The translations under genes and the position numbers were made by a program. 47,663 nt of DNA, taken from contig JALWEG010000015.1 in assembly GCA_027014155.1 (NCBI GenBank), forward strand, positions 1 through 47,663, read 5' to 3'. Shown here piece by piece: positions 18,738 to 36,135 of this stretch. The notes below the pieces were generated by a model. That model was not told where the DNA came from and did no database searches. It saw only the letters and a program-made list of their open reading frames with translations. Positions within the stretch are counted from its first letter, which is position 1, and each line of letters starts with the position of its first letter. The DNA comes from Aquificaceae bacterium. GTDB taxonomy: Bacteria; Aquificota; Aquificia; Aquificales; Aquificaceae.

Positions 18738-20147
18738 TCACTGTTTAACCACCCTCAAGACCTCCTCCGATGTGGTGATTCCCTCCCTTATCTTCCTTAT
18801 ACCGTCCCTGAGCATGTCCTCGTATCCTTTCTTTATAGCCAGCTCTCTTATGCCGTTGGCGTCTTGGTTCTGGGTTATGAACTGCTTAAGCTCGTCGTCA
18901 AACTCCAAGACCTCAAATATGGCCGTCCTACCCTTATACCCCGTTCCCAAGCACATATCGCAACCCCTGCCCCTGTAGAAGGTGAAGCCCTCCTCCAATC
19001 CCAGCTCCCTGATTTCTTCCTCGGAAGGCTCGTATCCCTCCCTGCAGTGGGGGCATACCTTTCTGACGAGCCTCTGAGCCACCACGCCCTCTATAGAGGA
19101 GGCTACCAGAAAGGGTTCCACTCCCATGTCCAGCAGCCGTGGAACGGCAGATACGGCATCGTTGGTGTGCAGAGTAGAAAGGAGCAGGTGTCCCGTCAAA
19201 GCAGCGTGAACCGCTATGTCCGCGGTTTCGGAATCCCTTATCTCTCCCACCATTATCACGTCTGGGTCCTGTCTGAGTATAGACCTGAGTCCCGCGGCAA
19301 AGGTTAAACCCACTTTGGGGTTTACCTGTATCTGGCTCACGCCCTTAATCTGATACTCCACAGGGTCTTCTATAGTGATGATGTTCTTGGTGGGAGATTT
19401 TATGTGTAGCAGCATGGCGTAGAGGGTGGTACTCTTACCTGCACCGGTGGGTCCCGTTATAAGAACTATACCGTAGGGTTTTTCCGCCAGTCTCTTTAGC
19501 TTCCTCTCGTTGCTCGGGGACAGCCCCAGCTCCTCCAGAGAGAGGAGTGCTCCGCTCTTGTCCAAGAGCCTCATAACCACCCTCTCTCCGAAGACCGTCG
19601 GAACTACGGAAACCCTGATGTCCAGGTCCTTCTTACCTATCTTCACCCTTATCCTTCCGTCTTGGGGAACCCTCTTTTCCGCAACGTTCAGGTTGGATAT
19701 TACCTTGATGCGCGACACCACCGACCTGTAGGTGGTGGGATTTATCTTCATTACCTCGTGGAGCATGCCGTCAAGTCTGAATCTGACAAGCGTCTCCTCC
19801 TCGTAAGGCTCAAAGTGAATGTCGGAGGCTCCTACCGTTGAGGCCCTTATCAGCAGGCTGTTTACCAGTTGAACCACCGGGCTGTCGTCAGAGCGCAGGA
19901 GCAGGTCTTCGCTGACATCTTCGTAAACCTCTTCCGGGTTCTCTATGTCTATGGATTCCTCTGAGAGTTTCTCCTGAAGCGCCTTTGCAAACTCCTCCTC
20001 GGAGATTACGGACAGCTTTACGTCTTTTCCCTTTATGAACCTTATCTCCTCCACCTTCTCCGGTTGAAAGTTCTCCGGAACCAGCAGCTCTAAGGTGTTT
20101 TCGTCTTCCCTGAGCGGTATAAGTCTGTATTCTTTGAGTATGTCCAT
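18738..20147 (-). CDS. gspE: Type II secretion / pilus assembly ATPase GspE
   Basis: The cytoplasmic ATPase that drives pseudopilus assembly. The 469-residue product has Walker A GPTGAGKSTT, the Asp box, the Walker B/His box MVGEIRDSETADIA, and a four-Cys zinc motif (CPHC and CDMC). The N-terminal GspL-binding region is short. I chose ATG at 20147: a longer frame to 20288 would run through gspC on the other strand. The start is 18 bp from gspC and shares an overlapping -10 core. PilB is an alternative name, but the gspC neighbour favours type II secretion. Confidence 0.93.
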   Translation of the reverse strand: MDILKEYRLIPLREDENTLELLVPENFQPEKVEEIRFIKGKDVKLSVISEEEFAKALQEKLSEESIDIENPEEVYEDVSEDLLLRSDDSPVVQLVNSLLIRASTVGASDIHFEPYEEETLVRFRLDGMLHEVMKINPTTYRSVVSRIKVISNLNVAEKRVPQDGRIRVKIGKKDLDIRVSVVPTVFGERVVMRLLDKSGALLSLEELGLSPSNERKLKRLAEKPYGIVLITGPTGAGKSTTLYAMLLHIKSPTKNIITIEDPVEYQIKGVSQIQVNPKVGLTFAAGLRSILRQDPDVIMVGEIRDSETADIAVHAALTGHLLLSTLHTNDAVSAVPRLLDMGVEPFLVASSIEGVVAQRLVRKVCPHCREGYEPSEEEIRELGLEEGFTFYRGRGCDMCLGTGYKGRTAIFEVLEFDDELKQFITQNQDANGIRELAIKKGYEDMLRDGIRKIREGITTSEEVLRVVKQ

Positions 20148-20151
20148 AAAG

Positions 20152-20161
20152 TAAAATTTTA
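20152..20161. promoter_or_regulatory. Shared palindromic -10 core of divergent gspE and gspC
   Basis: TAAAATTTTA is a palindrome that gives TAAAAT on both strands. On the plus strand it ends 8 nt before the gspC ATG (20166). On the minus strand its complement ends 8 nt before the gspE ATG (20147). If used, both mRNAs would start at or next to their ATG and RNA polymerase could occupy only one direction at a time. No good -35 match was seen; each would lie in the other gene's coding sequence. Confidence 0.5.
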
Positions 20162-20165
20162 AGGT

Positions 20166-20951
20166 ATGAGCATACTCCTTATCTCTCTCCCGGTTTACAT
20201 AGTCCTCCTCTTCTTGGTGGGATTGATGGCCTGGACTTACTGGATTAAGGAGAACCTGAATGTAGCGAATGTGCCGCAACTGAGACAAGAGAGACCCGAT
20301 TTAACCGCCTTGAAGGAAGGACTTTCCCGTATATTCCCCTCGGAAAGTGGGGAAGTGGTAGCTTCCAAGGGCAAGGCAAAAAACACAAAAGAGGTTAGGA
20401 TACAGCTCAAAGGCGTGGTCATCGGGGCAATAAACAGGGCCTTGGTGGTCATAGATGGAAAGGAAACCCTTATATCGGAAGGACAAGAAGTTAAGGGAGT
20501 TAAGTTGGTAAAGCTGTGGAGAAGGGGTGCAAAGTTTTCCATAAACGGCAAGGAGAGGGTGGTTTACATTCGCTCCGGGGACTCAAAGACCTCTGCTGGC
20601 AAACCTAACCTCCCACCGCCACCGCTCCCTCCCGGCGATGTCAGACTCTCAAGGAAGGATATACTAAGGGTTACCAAAGACCCCGGAATAATGTTCAGGG
20701 AAATCAGGTTGGTACCTTACGTAAGAAACGGCAGAACCGAGGGCTTTATCTTTGAGTGGATAAAGAGTGGCAGTCTCTTTGACAAGGTGGGGTTGAAGAG
20801 AGGAGACATTCTCGTTTCCATAAACAACATGAATATAAAGAGTGGGGAGGACGCCTTCAGGATACTCCAGACCCTCAGAAACTCGCCCAACCTGAAGGTG
20901 GTGGTTTTAAGAGGAGGAGTTAGGAAGGAACTGAACATAAGAATAGATTAG
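20166..20951 (+). CDS. gspC: Type II secretion protein GspC with PDZ domain
   Basis: GspC links the inner-membrane platform to the outer-membrane secretin. The 261-residue product has one N-terminal membrane helix (about residues 3-23) and a homology-region domain with VQLKGVV-like sequence (QLKGVVIGAINRALVVIDGKE). A Pro-rich linker (NLPPPPLPPGD) and a C-terminal PDZ domain follow, the latter with RNGRTEGFIFEWIKSGSL, VGLKRGDILVSIN and a final VVVLRGG strand. No Shine-Dalgarno precedes the ATG. The gene is followed by pepA after a 26-bp gap. Confidence 0.9.
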   Translation: MSILLISLPVYIVLLFLVGLMAWTYWIKENLNVANVPQLRQERPDLTALKEGLSRIFPSESGEVVASKGKAKNTKEVRIQLKGVVIGAINRALVVIDGKETLISEGQEVKGVKLVKLWRRGAKFSINGKERVVYIRSGDSKTSAGKPNLPPPPLPPGDVRLSRKDILRVTKDPGIMFREIRLVPYVRNGRTEGFIFEWIKSGSLFDKVGLKRGDILVSINNMNIKSGEDAFRILQTLRNSPNLKVVVLRGGVRKELNIRID

Positions 20952-31284: not shown

Positions 31285-31848
31285 ATGGATACGCAGAACC
31301 TCTTTCCCTTCTTTTTGTGGGTGATAAAGATATTCTCCTTGGCGCTCCTGATAGGCATTCCCATGATGCTCCTGGTGGTTTTCGTCTCTAACGCCGCCTA
31401 TAAGAAGTTCGGCAGCAAGATAGACAAGGCGCTGGAAAAGAAGTACGGCGACAAAGGCTTTACCCTCATAGAGATTCTCGTAGTTCTGGTGATACTGGGT
31501 CTTCTGGCAGCCCTAATCATACCCAGGGTCACCGGCAGGGTAGATGAGGCGAAGGTTGACTCTACCAAGATACAGATGAGAGCCATAAAGGACGCCCTTG
31601 AGCAGTATAGACTGGATAATGGGAAGTATCCTACGACCGAACAGGGTCTTAAGGCTCTGGTTGAAAAGCCCCAAGAGCCGCCTGAACCTAAGAGGTGGAA
31701 GAAGTATCTTGACAAGGTGCCCAAAGACGCTTGGGAGAACGAATTTATATACATATCCCCCGGAGTAAACCACCCTTACGAGCTGCGCTCCAAGGGCCCG
31801 GACGGCGAGGAGGATACCGAGGACGATATAGATGTCTGGGAACTCTAA
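31285..31848 (+). CDS. gspG: GspG-like major pseudopilin with long N-terminal leader
   Basis: The prepilin site is at DKG/FTLIEILVVLVILGLLAALIIP, with cleavage after Gly58 and Glu at mature position 5. The mature part has the calcium-region pattern YRLDNGKYPTTEQGLKAL and an acidic end DGEEDTEDDIDVWEL. The 58-residue leader is odd: GspG leaders are usually 6-20 residues, and this one has its own membrane helix (residues 8-36). No usable start lies close to the cleavage site. TATAAA ends 9 nt before the ATG and no ribosome site is present. The gene overlaps the next pseudopilin gene. Confidence 0.92.
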   Translation: MDTQNLFPFFLWVIKIFSLALLIGIPMMLLVVFVSNAAYKKFGSKIDKALEKKYGDKGFTLIEILVVLVILGLLAALIIPRVTGRVDEAKVDSTKIQMRAIKDALEQYRLDNGKYPTTEQGLKALVEKPQEPPEPKRWKKYLDKVPKDAWENEFIYISPGVNHPYELRSKGPDGEEDTEDDIDVWEL

Positions 31849-32119
31849 GGAAGGCTTTACCTTGGTGGAACTCCTAATAGCCTTCAGCATAGTGGCCATA
31901 ACCTTTCCCGTTCTACTAAGCCTTCTGTCCTACAGCACGCAGCTATACAGAAACTCCTCCGAGCTTTTCTCGGACCTGATAGTTTTAGACTCAAAGGTCA
32001 AAGAGGGTAAGCTCCAAGAGCTTGAGGTGAGAGAGGAAGAGGTTCCCGACTTCCCCAAGGTTAAAAAGATCATATACACCTACAAAGAGGTATTCCTCGT
32101 TGAGTACCGTATAAGATGA
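31832..32119 (+). CDS. Minor pseudopilin (GspI/GspH-like)
   Basis: The 95-residue product has the prepilin site EG/FTLVELLIAFSIVAITFPVL with Glu5. The mature domain is short, with charged helix (VLDSKVKEGKLQELEVREEEV) and a C-terminal strand. It starts 17 nt inside the gspG 3' end and overlaps the next gene by 4 nt. The precise type (GspI, H) is uncertain; length fits GspI best. Confidence 0.85.
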   Translation: MSGNSKEGFTLVELLIAFSIVAITFPVLLSLLSYSTQLYRNSSELFSDLIVLDSKVKEGKLQELEVREEEVPDFPKVKKIIYTYKEVFLVEYRIR

Positions 32120-32604
32120 GGAAGGCATTCACCCTCGTAGAGGTTCTCGTAGTTTTAACCTTGATGGGTCTTCTCTTCGGTATGCTCTCCTTTGCCTTTT
32201 ACCGTGCCAGCAACGGGAGCCTGAATGTTTTGCAGCTTTCTGAATCCATCAAACGGGAAGCGGTGCTCTACTGGGAACTTGAGAGAAAGATAACCGGCGC
32301 GAAAGAGATATACATAGAGAACGACAGGATATACATGCTGACGACCGGAGGCAGTCTGTACGACGGAGTTGTGAAGTGCGCTTACTTCGTAAAAGACGGA
32401 GCTCTTTTCTACTACGAGTTCCCGTATCCCTACCTCTCCTTAGACGACATAGAAGAGTCAAAGGCCTACAAGGTTATGGAGGTGGAAAGCTTCAAGGTGA
32501 GAGCCAAGGTCAGGGATTCGGAGGTAAGAACCCTGATAGGACTGCCGGATTACGTCCTGATAACTATAAACGACAGGAGCTTTACATACAGGGTGGTGAA
32601 GTGA
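32116..32604 (+). CDS. Minor pseudopilin (GspJ-like)
   Basis: The 162-residue product has the prepilin site KA/FTLVEVLVVLTLMGLLFGML with Glu5 after a very short leader. The mature part is a beta-rich domain with ERKITGAKEIYIENDRIYML. Its length and place after GspG and GspI-like genes suit GspJ. The ATG overlaps the previous gene by 4 nt. The next gene is a lipoprotein 48 bp downstream. Confidence 0.83.
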   Translation: MRKAFTLVEVLVVLTLMGLLFGMLSFAFYRASNGSLNVLQLSESIKREAVLYWELERKITGAKEIYIENDRIYMLTTGGSLYDGVVKCAYFVKDGALFYYEFPYPYLSLDDIEESKAYKVMEVESFKVRAKVRDSEVRTLIGLPDYVLITINDRSFTYRVVK

Positions 32605-32652
32605 TATGGTATTATTAAGTTCTAAAAGCTTAAGCCATAAAGGAGGGTTGTG

Positions 32653-33303
32653 GTGAAAAAGGTTAAACTTGCCCTTGCTGCGGGCTTGCTATCCGCGGGT
32701 TTGCTCTCTTGCGGCGGAGGAGGCTCCGGTATATACGGAGGGTTTGATACGGTCCTCATAGGCGTAAGCCAAGTTAACCCTCCAAAGCTGGAAAGCGATA
32801 CGCTAATACTGCAAGACAACGATGGAGATGGCTTTTGCGACGGATACTCTTTTCAGGACGATGCTCTGCAGATAACCCTCAAAAGTGAACCCATAAAAGA
32901 TGCCAACGGGGAGGTTATAACCCCGAACCCTTCACCCGTTTATATAGACAGGTATAGACTTACCTTTGTCAGCGGTGTCAGCAACAATAACTGCGAGAGA
33001 TACAAAAGTTGCAGGAGCTTATTTGCTCAACCTTACGAGCAGTTTACCTCAATAACCATAAATCCTAACGAGGAGCTTACCGTGGGTTTAGTTGTAGTCT
33101 TGGCTTCCTGGAAATCCTCGGTATTGAGCCAATACTGTGCCACCCCCTTGGATAACTGCATTTACAACGTGGTGCTTGAACTGAGAGGTAGAGAGGTGCT
33201 AACGGGCAGTACAAAGACCATCAGGGCTACCTTTAACGTGCAGTTTGCCAACTACAACCAGGGTAATGCTCAAGGAGCTACCGCAGATGCTAACTGTCAG
33301 TAA
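32653..33303 (+). CDS. Secreted lipoprotein with a calcium-loop-like motif
   Basis: The product (216 residues) has a lipoprotein signal peptide with lipobox LLSC, putting the lipidated Cys near position 20, followed by a Gly-rich linker. A DNDGDGFCDGY loop resembles type-3 thrombospondin/dockerin Ca-binding loops. Several more Cys (SNNNCERYKSC, QYCATPLDNC) could form disulfides outside the cell. I chose GTG at 32653, 6 nt after AGGAGG; GTG at 32650 is also possible. It lies between pseudopilin genes and the CTERM-like protein, and is probably part of the same operon. Confidence 0.8.
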   Translation: MKKVKLALAAGLLSAGLLSCGGGGSGIYGGFDTVLIGVSQVNPPKLESDTLILQDNDGDGFCDGYSFQDDALQITLKSEPIKDANGEVITPNPSPVYIDRYRLTFVSGVSNNNCERYKSCRSLFAQPYEQFTSITINPNEELTVGLVVVLASWKSSVLSQYCATPLDNCIYNVVLELRGREVLTGSTKTIRATFNVQFANYNQGNAQGATADANCQ

Positions 33304-33328: not shown

Positions 33329-34993
33329 ATGGGAATAGGAATAAAAAAGGTATTCTTAGGTTTACTCTTGGCTTCCATAGGCACAGGCTTGAGTGCTCCG
33401 ATGCTTAGGATATTTCCCGACTCCCCCTATAGCTTCGGTCCTACTACGATAGATACCTCTAAAACCGTTGAGTTCTCTTTGACCAACATAGGGACAGGGA
33501 TTTTGAGAGTATGCAACGTAAGCGTCAGCATGGGCTCTCCCAACTTTGAGATTGTTTCCGATAGATGCTCCGGCTCTTCCTTGGCTTACGGAGCGAGCTG
33601 CAATATAAGCGTAAGGTACACACCCAATCTCAAGGTGAACAACGTAGGCGCGATAAGCGTTGCCTACGATGACGACGAAGACAACGTAGCTTGCAATACT
33701 GTAAAGAGCGCAAGTATATCCCTCAGCGGCAGCGGAACCGCCATAAGGGTAGTTAAAGTAAGTCCTGCTCCTTCCATGGGAGGATTCAGCTTCTCTTTTC
33801 CCGCAACGGACTTTGGAAACACCAGCACCATGACCTTTAGAATATGCAACGCTGCGGGAGACCCCCTCGTATTGAACAATCCGGCCTTAGAGCTGCTAAA
33901 CACGCCCGATAGTACAACCTTCGGTATAGTGAGCAGCAACTGTCAAGGAGCGGTTCTAAATTACGCCGCAAACAACTCCGATTGTTCCCAGAATTACTGC
34001 GAGTTTAACGTGGTGTTTCAACCGCAATCGGGATACCCTTACAGTAAAACCACCTTTTACGGCTACGTGCGCATAAACGACCTGAACGGTGGACCCGACG
34101 GTCAGCCTTCAGGCTCCACGATTTCCCTTTTGGGAGAAGTCAATCCCCCCACCGGTGTGATATTTGCGGACATAGGACAATCTGCAGACCAGCTGGTGCA
34201 GTTGAACTTTACCTGTCCCGACGACCCCACCACGAACGCTAACGCAACCCAGAGCACCTTTGATTTAACTTACTCTCTTTCGGGAAGTTCATACTTCTCT
34301 TTACCCAACGGCGTTCAGGCATGTCCTACGCAATGTACTGAGAATAAACCCGTTTACTGCAACATTCTGGTCAGGTTCTCTCCGGAGACACCCGGAACCT
34401 TTACTGGACGCTTGATTATCGGATACCCGGGGGGCAGCCTTGTAAGAACCATATACGGCGTAGCCGGTTCTTCTACCGGCAATTACTTGGACGTTGACCC
34501 GGACGTTATCAACTTCGGGACCGTGTTCAGGTTCGCCTCGTACGGTGCATCTCTGATAATCAAGAATACGACCGGCTCGGCTTTAGAGTTTCAACCCCAA
34601 GCCGTAGGTGCGGGTGTAAGTATAAGCGGTATAACCTGTGGCTGTAATACGGGGTATGCCTCTAACGGACAGTTCTGCACACCGTCCGGAACCCCTACCA
34701 CGTCGCGTGCCTATAGGATTCGTCCCGGAGAGATATGCTCCATCAGCGTAGCCTTCTCTCCTCCGATAGTCGGGAACATAACCACCATAAACGCTGCAAT
34801 TCTCTTGGACACTCCCGCACAGGTAATTGCAATTCCGGTCATAGCTACGATGGAGGCACCTTCACCGCCTACGAACCCCTCTACCGGTCTTCCCTCTTTC
34901 GGTTCGGGTGGCGGTTGCAGCAGCACGGGTCTCTCTCTTCTGGGACTGCTCGCATTTTTGCCCGCAATCTGGCTCAGGAGATTCCTAAGGTAG
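33329..34993 (+). CDS. Large secreted protein with repeated choice-of-anchor-D-like domains and Cys-CTERM tail
   Basis: The 554-residue product has a signal peptide (VFLGLLLASIGTGLSA). About four beta domains of the ASH/choice-of-anchor-D type follow, at roughly 25-135, 140-265, 270-380 and 385-505. Each has a FGxxx..TxTVxFSLTN-like start and a CxISVxYTP-like end. The C-terminus is a linker rich in Pro, Thr and Ser, then GSGGGCSS with Cys near 530, a hydrophobic stretch of about 15 residues and an Arg-rich end. That tripartite tail (small/Gly-Cys motif, membrane helix, basic end) recalls sorting signals such as MYXO-CTERM. A CPBP protease is encoded nearby. GGGAGG precedes the ATG. Confidence 0.88.
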   Translation: MGIGIKKVFLGLLLASIGTGLSAPMLRIFPDSPYSFGPTTIDTSKTVEFSLTNIGTGILRVCNVSVSMGSPNFEIVSDRCSGSSLAYGASCNISVRYTPNLKVNNVGAISVAYDDDEDNVACNTVKSASISLSGSGTAIRVVKVSPAPSMGGFSFSFPATDFGNTSTMTFRICNAAGDPLVLNNPALELLNTPDSTTFGIVSSNCQGAVLNYAANNSDCSQNYCEFNVVFQPQSGYPYSKTTFYGYVRINDLNGGPDGQPSGSTISLLGEVNPPTGVIFADIGQSADQLVQLNFTCPDDPTTNANATQSTFDLTYSLSGSSYFSLPNGVQACPTQCTENKPVYCNILVRFSPETPGTFTGRLIIGYPGGSLVRTIYGVAGSSTGNYLDVDPDVINFGTVFRFASYGASLIIKNTTGSALEFQPQAVGAGVSISGITCGCNTGYASNGQFCTPSGTPTTSRAYRIRPGEICSISVAFSPPIVGNITTINAAILLDTPAQVIAIPVIATMEAPSPPTNPSTGLPSFGSGGGCSSTGLSLLGLLAFLPAIWLRRFLR

Positions 34994-34994
34994 C

Positions 34995-35651
34995 ATGCAG
35001 ATAGCCGTTCCCTTGACCGACGAGGCCTTCTCCGAGGAGGTGGGGAGGGCTGCATCTCTCGGTGCCGATATAATTGAGCTGAGGGTTGACCAGTTCAAGG
35101 ACAAATCGACCGAGCACGTGCTGGAATGCATAGACTTAGTCCACAGCAAAGGACTTAAGACCATTCTTACCGTAAGGATTCCCCAAGAAGGCGGAGCTTA
35201 CGTGGAGAACCGGTTGGAGATATTTGAGGCCGCTGCATCCGTCAGCGATTACACGGACTTAGAGCTGACCGCCAGAGAAGACATACTCAAAGTCAGGGAG
35301 TTTATGGGCAACGGCAAGCTCATAGTGTCCTTCCACGACTTTGAGAGAACACCGCCCCTTTGGCTTCTGAAAGAGGTCTATAGGGAAGCCAAGAGGTTCG
35401 GCGCCCACATACCCAAGATTGCCGTTATGGCCAACTCCCTTGATGACGTGGCCAGACTCCTGTGCTTGGGAAACGAGGAGAAGGGAGAGAAGATTCTGAT
35501 AGCGATGGGTGAGTTGGGAAGCGTATCCAGGATTGCCGCTTACGCCTTCGGTTCCGTTATATCCTACGCCTCGCTGGAGAGGAGCTTCGCACCCGGGCAG
35601 ATACCCTTAGAAGAAATGGTAAAGCTCAGAGAACGCTTCTATAGAGTATAG
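34995..35651 (+). CDS. aroD: 3-dehydroquinate dehydratase, type I
   Basis: AroD makes 3-dehydroshikimate in the shikimate pathway by a Schiff-base mechanism. The 218-residue product has ELRVDQF near the N-terminus, the catalytic His of VSFHDFERT and the Schiff-base Lys of IPKIAVMA. It starts 1 nt after the CTERM gene, so it is probably co-transcribed with it, an odd metabolic guest in a surface locus. It overlaps the opposite CPBP gene by 26 bp. Confidence 0.95.
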   Translation: MQIAVPLTDEAFSEEVGRAASLGADIIELRVDQFKDKSTEHVLECIDLVHSKGLKTILTVRIPQEGGAYVENRLEIFEAAASVSDYTDLELTAREDILKVREFMGNGKLIVSFHDFERTPPLWLLKEVYREAKRFGAHIPKIAVMANSLDDVARLLCLGNEEKGEKILIAMGELGSVSRIAAYAFGSVISYASLERSFAPGQIPLEEMVKLRERFYRV

Positions 35652-36135
35652 GGAACCTTTCCATCAAGGAGAAGTAGGAGAGATTGAAAACCCAATGGAA
35701 GATGATGGGTGCCAGTATAGAGCCCGAGCGCAGATAAACCCACCCGAATATCAGGGAGGGAAAAAAAGTAAGAACAGAGACGAAATTTTGATACAGAATC
35801 ACGTGGGGCAACGCAAAAAGGAGGGACACCGCTACGTTGTTTAACTTCCTCATCATAAAGCCCCTGAAGAAGGTCTCCTCGGCTACGGCCACGCCCAGAT
35901 TGTTCAGCACCACCCCCCAGCAGGAGAAGGAAGGTGGCAAGAGTAGCCATACCGGGAGAGATAGGGAGCCGTAAAGCAGTCCCCTCTTTAAGTTCCTGTA
36001 GCCGAGGCTCTTTATATCCTTCTCAAACACCAACGGAGAGAGTAAAACCGCCTGTGCCACAAGCGGGGTTTGGAAAAGCTTGAAAATGAAGACTCCGATG
36101 AGGAAGACTGAGTAAAGAGACAGGTAAACGAGCAC
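35626..36135 (-). CDS. CPBP-family (glutamic-type) intramembrane protease
   Basis: The 169-residue product has about six membrane segments and the CPBP/CAAX-protease motifs: EETFFRG with Glu86-Glu87 and Arg91, a His at ALPHVIL (111), and HWVFN with His147. Members include eukaryotic Rce1 and bacterial enzymes that cut CTERM-type tails, such as myxosortase. It starts with GTG. Its gene is convergent with aroD, and the CTERM-like substrate candidate lies just beyond aroD. Its substrate is not established. Bacteriocin-immunity-type CPBP is the alternative. Confidence 0.88.
   Translation of the reverse strand: MLVYLSLYSVFLIGVFIFKLFQTPLVAQAVLLSPLVFEKDIKSLGYRNLKRGLLYGSLSLPVWLLLPPSFSCWGVVLNNLGVAVAEETFFRGFMMRKLNNVAVSLLFALPHVILYQNFVSVLTFFPSLIFGWVYLRSGSILAPIIFHWVFNLSYFSLMERFPILYRSVL

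Follow-up and report, generated by a model that had tools for sequence, protein, structure and literature searches.

A Cys-tailed exported protein and a myxosortase-like protease as probable parts of an Aquificota-wide surface-anchoring system

The contig analyzed here (the window, 47,663 nucleotides; G000:C15 of an Aquificota genome of 1.86 Mb and 99.9% completeness) very probably encodes one substrate, together with its genome's single processing protease, of a Cys-CTERM/myxosortase surface-anchoring system that is found throughout the Aquificota. The parts of this system and their co-inheritance are observed, namely a C-terminal tail, an enzyme with its catalytic residues, the co-occurrence of the two among genomes, the adjacency of their genes, and genes of the type II secretion system (T2SS). 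A preliminary description of this DNA had proposed an Aquificota version of CTERM sorting, and we looked for three patterns that would speak against it, i.e., tails common in genomes that lack the protease, a protease that groups with bacteriocin-immunity or Rce1-type enzymes, and a tail resembling an ordinary membrane anchor without Cys conservation; none of the three was found. The coordinates of the relevant features are collected in Table 1.

Table 1. Features of the putative sorting system in the window (positions counted from its first nucleotide)
Feature	Position	Strand	Evidence or remark
gspE, T2SS ATPase	18738..20288	-	TIGR02533, 633 bits (cut-off 630.25)
gspC, T2SS inner-membrane protein	20166..20951	+	TIGR01713, 130.2 bits (cut-off 101.6)
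gspG, T2SS major pseudopilin, long N-terminal leader	31285..31848	+	TIGR01710, 178.3 bits (cut-off 88.85)
Minor pseudopilin, GspI-like	31832..32119	+	N_methyl PF07963 passes its cut-off; TIGR01707 falls short at 26.1 bits
Minor pseudopilin, GspH/J-like	32116..32604	+	N_methyl PF07963 passes its cut-off; TIGR01708 falls short at 24.1 bits
Predicted substrate: exported choice-of-anchor D / Ig-like protein, Cys sorting tail at its C-terminus	33329..34993	+	554 aa; NF012200, PF22544, signal peptide
C-terminal sorting tail: GSGGGC motif, transmembrane stretch, RRFLR	34901..34990	+	TIGR04564; Aquificota tail profile A4
Predicted tail-cutting enzyme: myxosortase-like CPBP glutamic-type intramembrane protease	35626..36135	-	169 aa; PF02517, Mrt models, AlphaFold2
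CPBP catalytic codons	E86/E87 35880-35875; R91 35865-35863; H111 35805-35803; H147 35697-35695; N151 35685-35683	-	

The genes lie in the order gspG, two minor pseudopilins, a 217-aa lipobox protein, the tail protein, aroD, CPBP on the opposite strand, and yjbQ, with aroD as the one gene between the tail protein and the protease, in keeping with the initial description of the two as one gene apart. The body of the tail protein belongs to the choice-of-anchor D / Ig-like families (NF012200, 71 bits, cut-off 45; PF22544, 43.5 bits), it starts with an N-terminal signal peptide, and it ends in GSGGGC-SSTGLSLLGLLAFLPAIWLRRFLR. Its Cys530 (codon 34916-34918) is the 25th residue counted from the C-terminus, which together with the reading frame and the signal peptide bears out the earlier picture of an exported protein with a Cys about 25 residues from its end, a helix and Arg residues; the tail matches the Aquificota tail profile A4 with E=6.1e-8. 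The 217-aa protein (32650-33303), which separates the pseudopilins from the tail protein, carries an N-terminal lipobox LLSC followed by GGGGS and has no family match. The T2SS genes had likewise been read correctly as three pseudopilin genes with gspC and gspE upstream: GspG, GspC, and GspE exceed their NCBIfam cut-offs and the minor pair carries the N_methyl domain, gspC and gspE preceding the tail gene by 12-15 kb and gspG by about 10-12 kb. The listed TTG start of gspE, which overlaps gspC, is probably too early. The leader of GspG is unusually long, comprising ~56 residues that include an extra hydrophobic stretch ahead of the GFTLIE prepilin motif.

The protease is the only PF02517 protein of the genome (Rce1-like family, 60.8 bits, cut-off 22.4) and possesses the complete motif set E86-E87-xxx-R91, H111, and H147-xxx-N151 that had been noted at first reading. 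E86, E87, R91, H111, and H147 are invariant both in an alignment of 20 Aquificota sequences and in a 57-sequence set of relatives, and N151 is kept in at least 90% of the aligned CPBPs. An AlphaFold2 model based on the 57-sequence alignment, used instead of a poor single-sequence model (pLDDT 65), is all-helical with a pLDDT of 96.4; Foldseek of this confident model against the PDB gave no significant match, so that solved CPBP structures lend the fold no support; nor did any CPBP turn up when PDB sequences were searched with a profile. Furthermore, each of the 20 Aquificota CPBPs examined matches the Mrt_core, MrtP, MrtS, MrtC, MrtJ, and MrtX models, with Mrt_core still among the best. An identity as bacteriocin-immunity or generic Rce1 enzymes, considered from the outset as the alternative, was dropped because the myxosortase models fit best.

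The tail is not confined to one protein or one genome, and its occurrence is far beyond chance. Scanning the Aquificota with a tail profile, as the preliminary description had suggested, revealed tails across the phylum at about 1-10 tail proteins per genome, with the motif GGGGGC(S/N)(T/M)G. An initial regular-expression scanner returned several spurious antisense ORFs, which were removed by eye, and a first profile, which was based on 26 tails drawn largely from a single family and showed noise at E ~0.05-1, was superseded by one built from 49 tails. The Gly-Cys pair is invariant in all 49 aligned tails, the first scanner having required the Cys. This genome contains seven tail proteins, with no eighth at E<=10: the choice-of-anchor D protein of the window, three long choice-of-anchor U and/or Q proteins (PKD domains occur in two), two S8 subtilases, and one fusion of a glycosyltransferase with a beta-helix. 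Signal peptides occur in six of the seven, the exception being the fusion, which contains internal membrane helices. This fusion (L154:4640-7477, on G000:C4) comprises 946 aa, in which a membrane glycosyltransferase-2 domain is joined to an exported-looking part with the Cys tail at its end, the beta-helix having been assigned by eye from the translation; the idea that it was a false match to a glycosyltransferase was dropped, as the translation has the exported-looking part ahead of the tail.

In addition, S8 subtilases are encoded within ~1.3 kb of CPBP genes in both Aquificota and Nitrospirota, and 17 of them carry distinct tails composed of a G-rich segment, Cys, helix, and basic residues, a count that is not wholly independent of the tail since the S8 profile was built from tail-bearing subtilases. 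Exceptions among the CPBP-adjacent S8 matches are a tailless Planctomycetota protein, a protein truncated by the end of its contig, and one fragment. In Nitrospirota, the CPBP-adjacent tail subtilases of six loci (L236, L228, L237, L223, L216, and L199) also carry an N-terminal lipobox, and at L228 and L237 such subtilases flank the CPBP gene on both sides. Judged from these two motifs, the Nitrospirota subtilases may be lipid-anchored at both ends.

Of 136 Aquificota genomes, 96 have a CPBP, almost invariably as a single copy, and the distribution of tails follows it closely. When CPBPs that are truncated or devoid of catalytic residues were scored as absent, 54 near-complete genomes had both CPBP and tails, 11 CPBP only, 3 tails only, and 20 neither. 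Tails accordingly occur in 54 of 65 genomes with an intact CPBP versus 3 of 23 without one (Fisher 3e-9, a value that ignores shared ancestry), so the co-occurrence that the preliminary description wished to see examined is present and tails are not common where CPBP is missing. The same description had also asked how CPBP is distributed relative to gspC/G: among GspC-positive genomes, tails are found in 52/61 with CPBP vs 1/10 without, GspC having been scored as absent where the match was weak (E greater than ~1e-8) and spanned the PDZ domain only. Because the split persists among these genomes, the link between CPBP and tail does not merely reflect the presence of T2SS. For instance, all five genomes of genus g5 lack both CPBP and tails, and GspC is present in four of the five and GspG in both genomes tested; in g22, CPBP and convincing tails are both absent. 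In two complete genomes without GspC (G036 and G037), CPBP (L119, L160) is cut to 125-126 aa and there are no tails (G036) or one weak tail (G037), and here the system is apparently decaying.

The three near-complete genomes with a tail and no intact CPBP are G037, G046, and G073. G046 has a single tail, on a protein that also bears an N-terminal lipobox, and CPBP, GspC, and an over-cut-off GspG are all missing from it; G073 is 96% complete, and both its congeners have CPBP. Tails were not detected in the eleven near-complete genomes with CPBP only. Two of these, G097 and G099, have intact CPBP (two copies in G099) and no GspC.

What these parts might do together can be drawn from MrtX of Myxococcus xanthus, for which cleavage of MYXO-CTERM and the requirement for its invariant Cys were shown experimentally, and which is active in E. 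coli (PMC11980579). By analogy with this enzyme, we infer tail cleavage, Cys lipidation, T2SS export, and surface display for the Aquificota system. The tail proteins (choice-of-anchor proteins, subtilases, and others) would be exported by Sec via their N-terminal signal peptide, and the C-terminal helix would then retain them in the inner membrane, so oriented that the Arg-rich end lies inside and the Cys on the outer face. Next, the Cys would probably be lipidated by a separate putative enzyme, CPBP would remove the helix by cleavage C-terminal to the Cys, and T2SS would deliver the product, with its lipid anchor, to the cell surface. Both systems share a short motif with an invariant Cys, a helix and an Arg cluster, a CPBP protease, and T2SS in the same organism, and in both the substrates include surface hydrolases (PMC11980579). 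They differ in that the Aquificota enzyme, at 169 aa, has fewer residues and reaches 44.9 bits against the MrtX cut-off of 180, in that the Aquificota motif stands in place of the GCGC of MYXO-CTERM, and in the number of substrates, which is dozens for MYXO-CTERM compared to the few per genome here.

Two other readings leave CPBP without a role in the maturation of the tail. The tail could be an ordinary, uncut C-terminal membrane anchor next to a CPBP that does something else. A helix followed by Arg residues is plausible as an anchor alone, and G046 retains one tail although no CPBP was found there; however, an anchor of this kind does not account for a Cys and a preceding Gly that never vary among 49 tails, for the dependence of tails on CPBP presence across the phylum, or for tail subtilases that adjoin CPBP in distant lineages, and we regard it as highly improbable. 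The conservation of the Cys, raised early on as the point that would tell a sorting signal from a plain anchor, extends to the 17 tails on CPBP-adjacent subtilases. Alternatively, the tail could be cut by another protease, a rhomboid or a signal peptidase II-like enzyme, with CPBP serving a different class of substrates. GlyGly-CTERM, which resembles the present system in its C-terminal tripartite signal, its intramembrane protease, and its T2SS, is processed by a rhomboid-family enzyme (rhombosortase), hence by another protease family, and this genome does encode one rhomboid (C55, 126.2 bits). Yet with the rhombosortase model this rhomboid reaches 18.2 bits, the cut-off being 84, so rhombosortase is absent from this genome, in which no exosortase match was found either, whereas its only CPBP matches the myxosortase models and tail presence tracks CPBP. 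That another protease cuts the tail is scarcely likely at all.

A further alternative retains the mechanism of tail cleavage by CPBP and concerns its classification, as the pair could simply be Synerg-CTERM/MrtS, which we take to be the system of Synergistota, in another phylum. Synerg-CTERM (TIGR04564) matches 24 of 26 tails, more than any other model and as short fragments, MrtS ranks with Mrt_core and MrtP as a best model for the window CPBP, and the enzymes are similar in length (the MrtS model has 170 aa). However, the Synerg-CTERM cut-off is passed in only 5/136 genomes and most tails fall below it, and the window CPBP reaches 61.4 bits with MrtS (cut-off 130) and scores at least as high with Mrt_core (NF040914, 67.7 bits, below its cut-off of 100) and MrtP (63.5). 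The comparison with NCBIfam CTERM families that the preliminary description had left open thus yielded Synerg-CTERM as the closest tail model, but the window tail itself proved borderline, with 17.6 in the whole protein against the cut-off of 22.5, 24.5 as a fragment, and 23.3 in the genome search. We therefore consider identity with Synerg-CTERM/MrtS rather unlikely. JDVT-CTERM/MrtJ is reminiscent of the subtilase-CPBP pairs, as one Cys-tail protein adjoins one CPBP protease; MrtJ scores just 39.8 against its cut-off of 75, however, and JDVT-CTERM matches only 3/26 tails. As the window CPBP passes no equivalog cut-off (MrtX, MrtP, MrtC, MrtS, MrtJ, and MrtZ are all well below), it is filed under no named Mrt. 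On its sequence features, we regard the pair as a predicted, so far unnamed myxosortase/Cys-CTERM pair of known kind that lies beyond the reach of the equivalogs of NCBIfam release 20.

It is possible, and we propose this tentatively, that the Aquificota possess a distinct myxosortase/Cys-CTERM pair that is ancestral in the phylum, with a related form in Nitrospirota and with some substrates lipid-anchored at both ends. In a quick tree, whose support is partly weak, most Aquificota CPBPs group together, apart from separate groups of Nitrospirota and of Thermodesulfobacteriota/Myxococcota, which fits long vertical descent within the Aquificota. The system described here would bring myxosortase-type sorting, for which named models cover few groups so far, to the thermophile phylum Aquificota and to Nitrospirota, and it predicts surface-anchored subtilases and adhesin-like proteins in both. 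Since there is mostly one CPBP, few substrates, and a compact subtilase-CPBP pair, it could also serve as a simple test bed for what becomes attached to the invariant Cys. Finally, L145, L165, and L166 (in G125, G124, and G126, respectively) encode a CPBP paralogue in which the catalytic residues are changed (QE or QS, FFK, first His absent), and a second CPBP match also occurs in G123 and G126.
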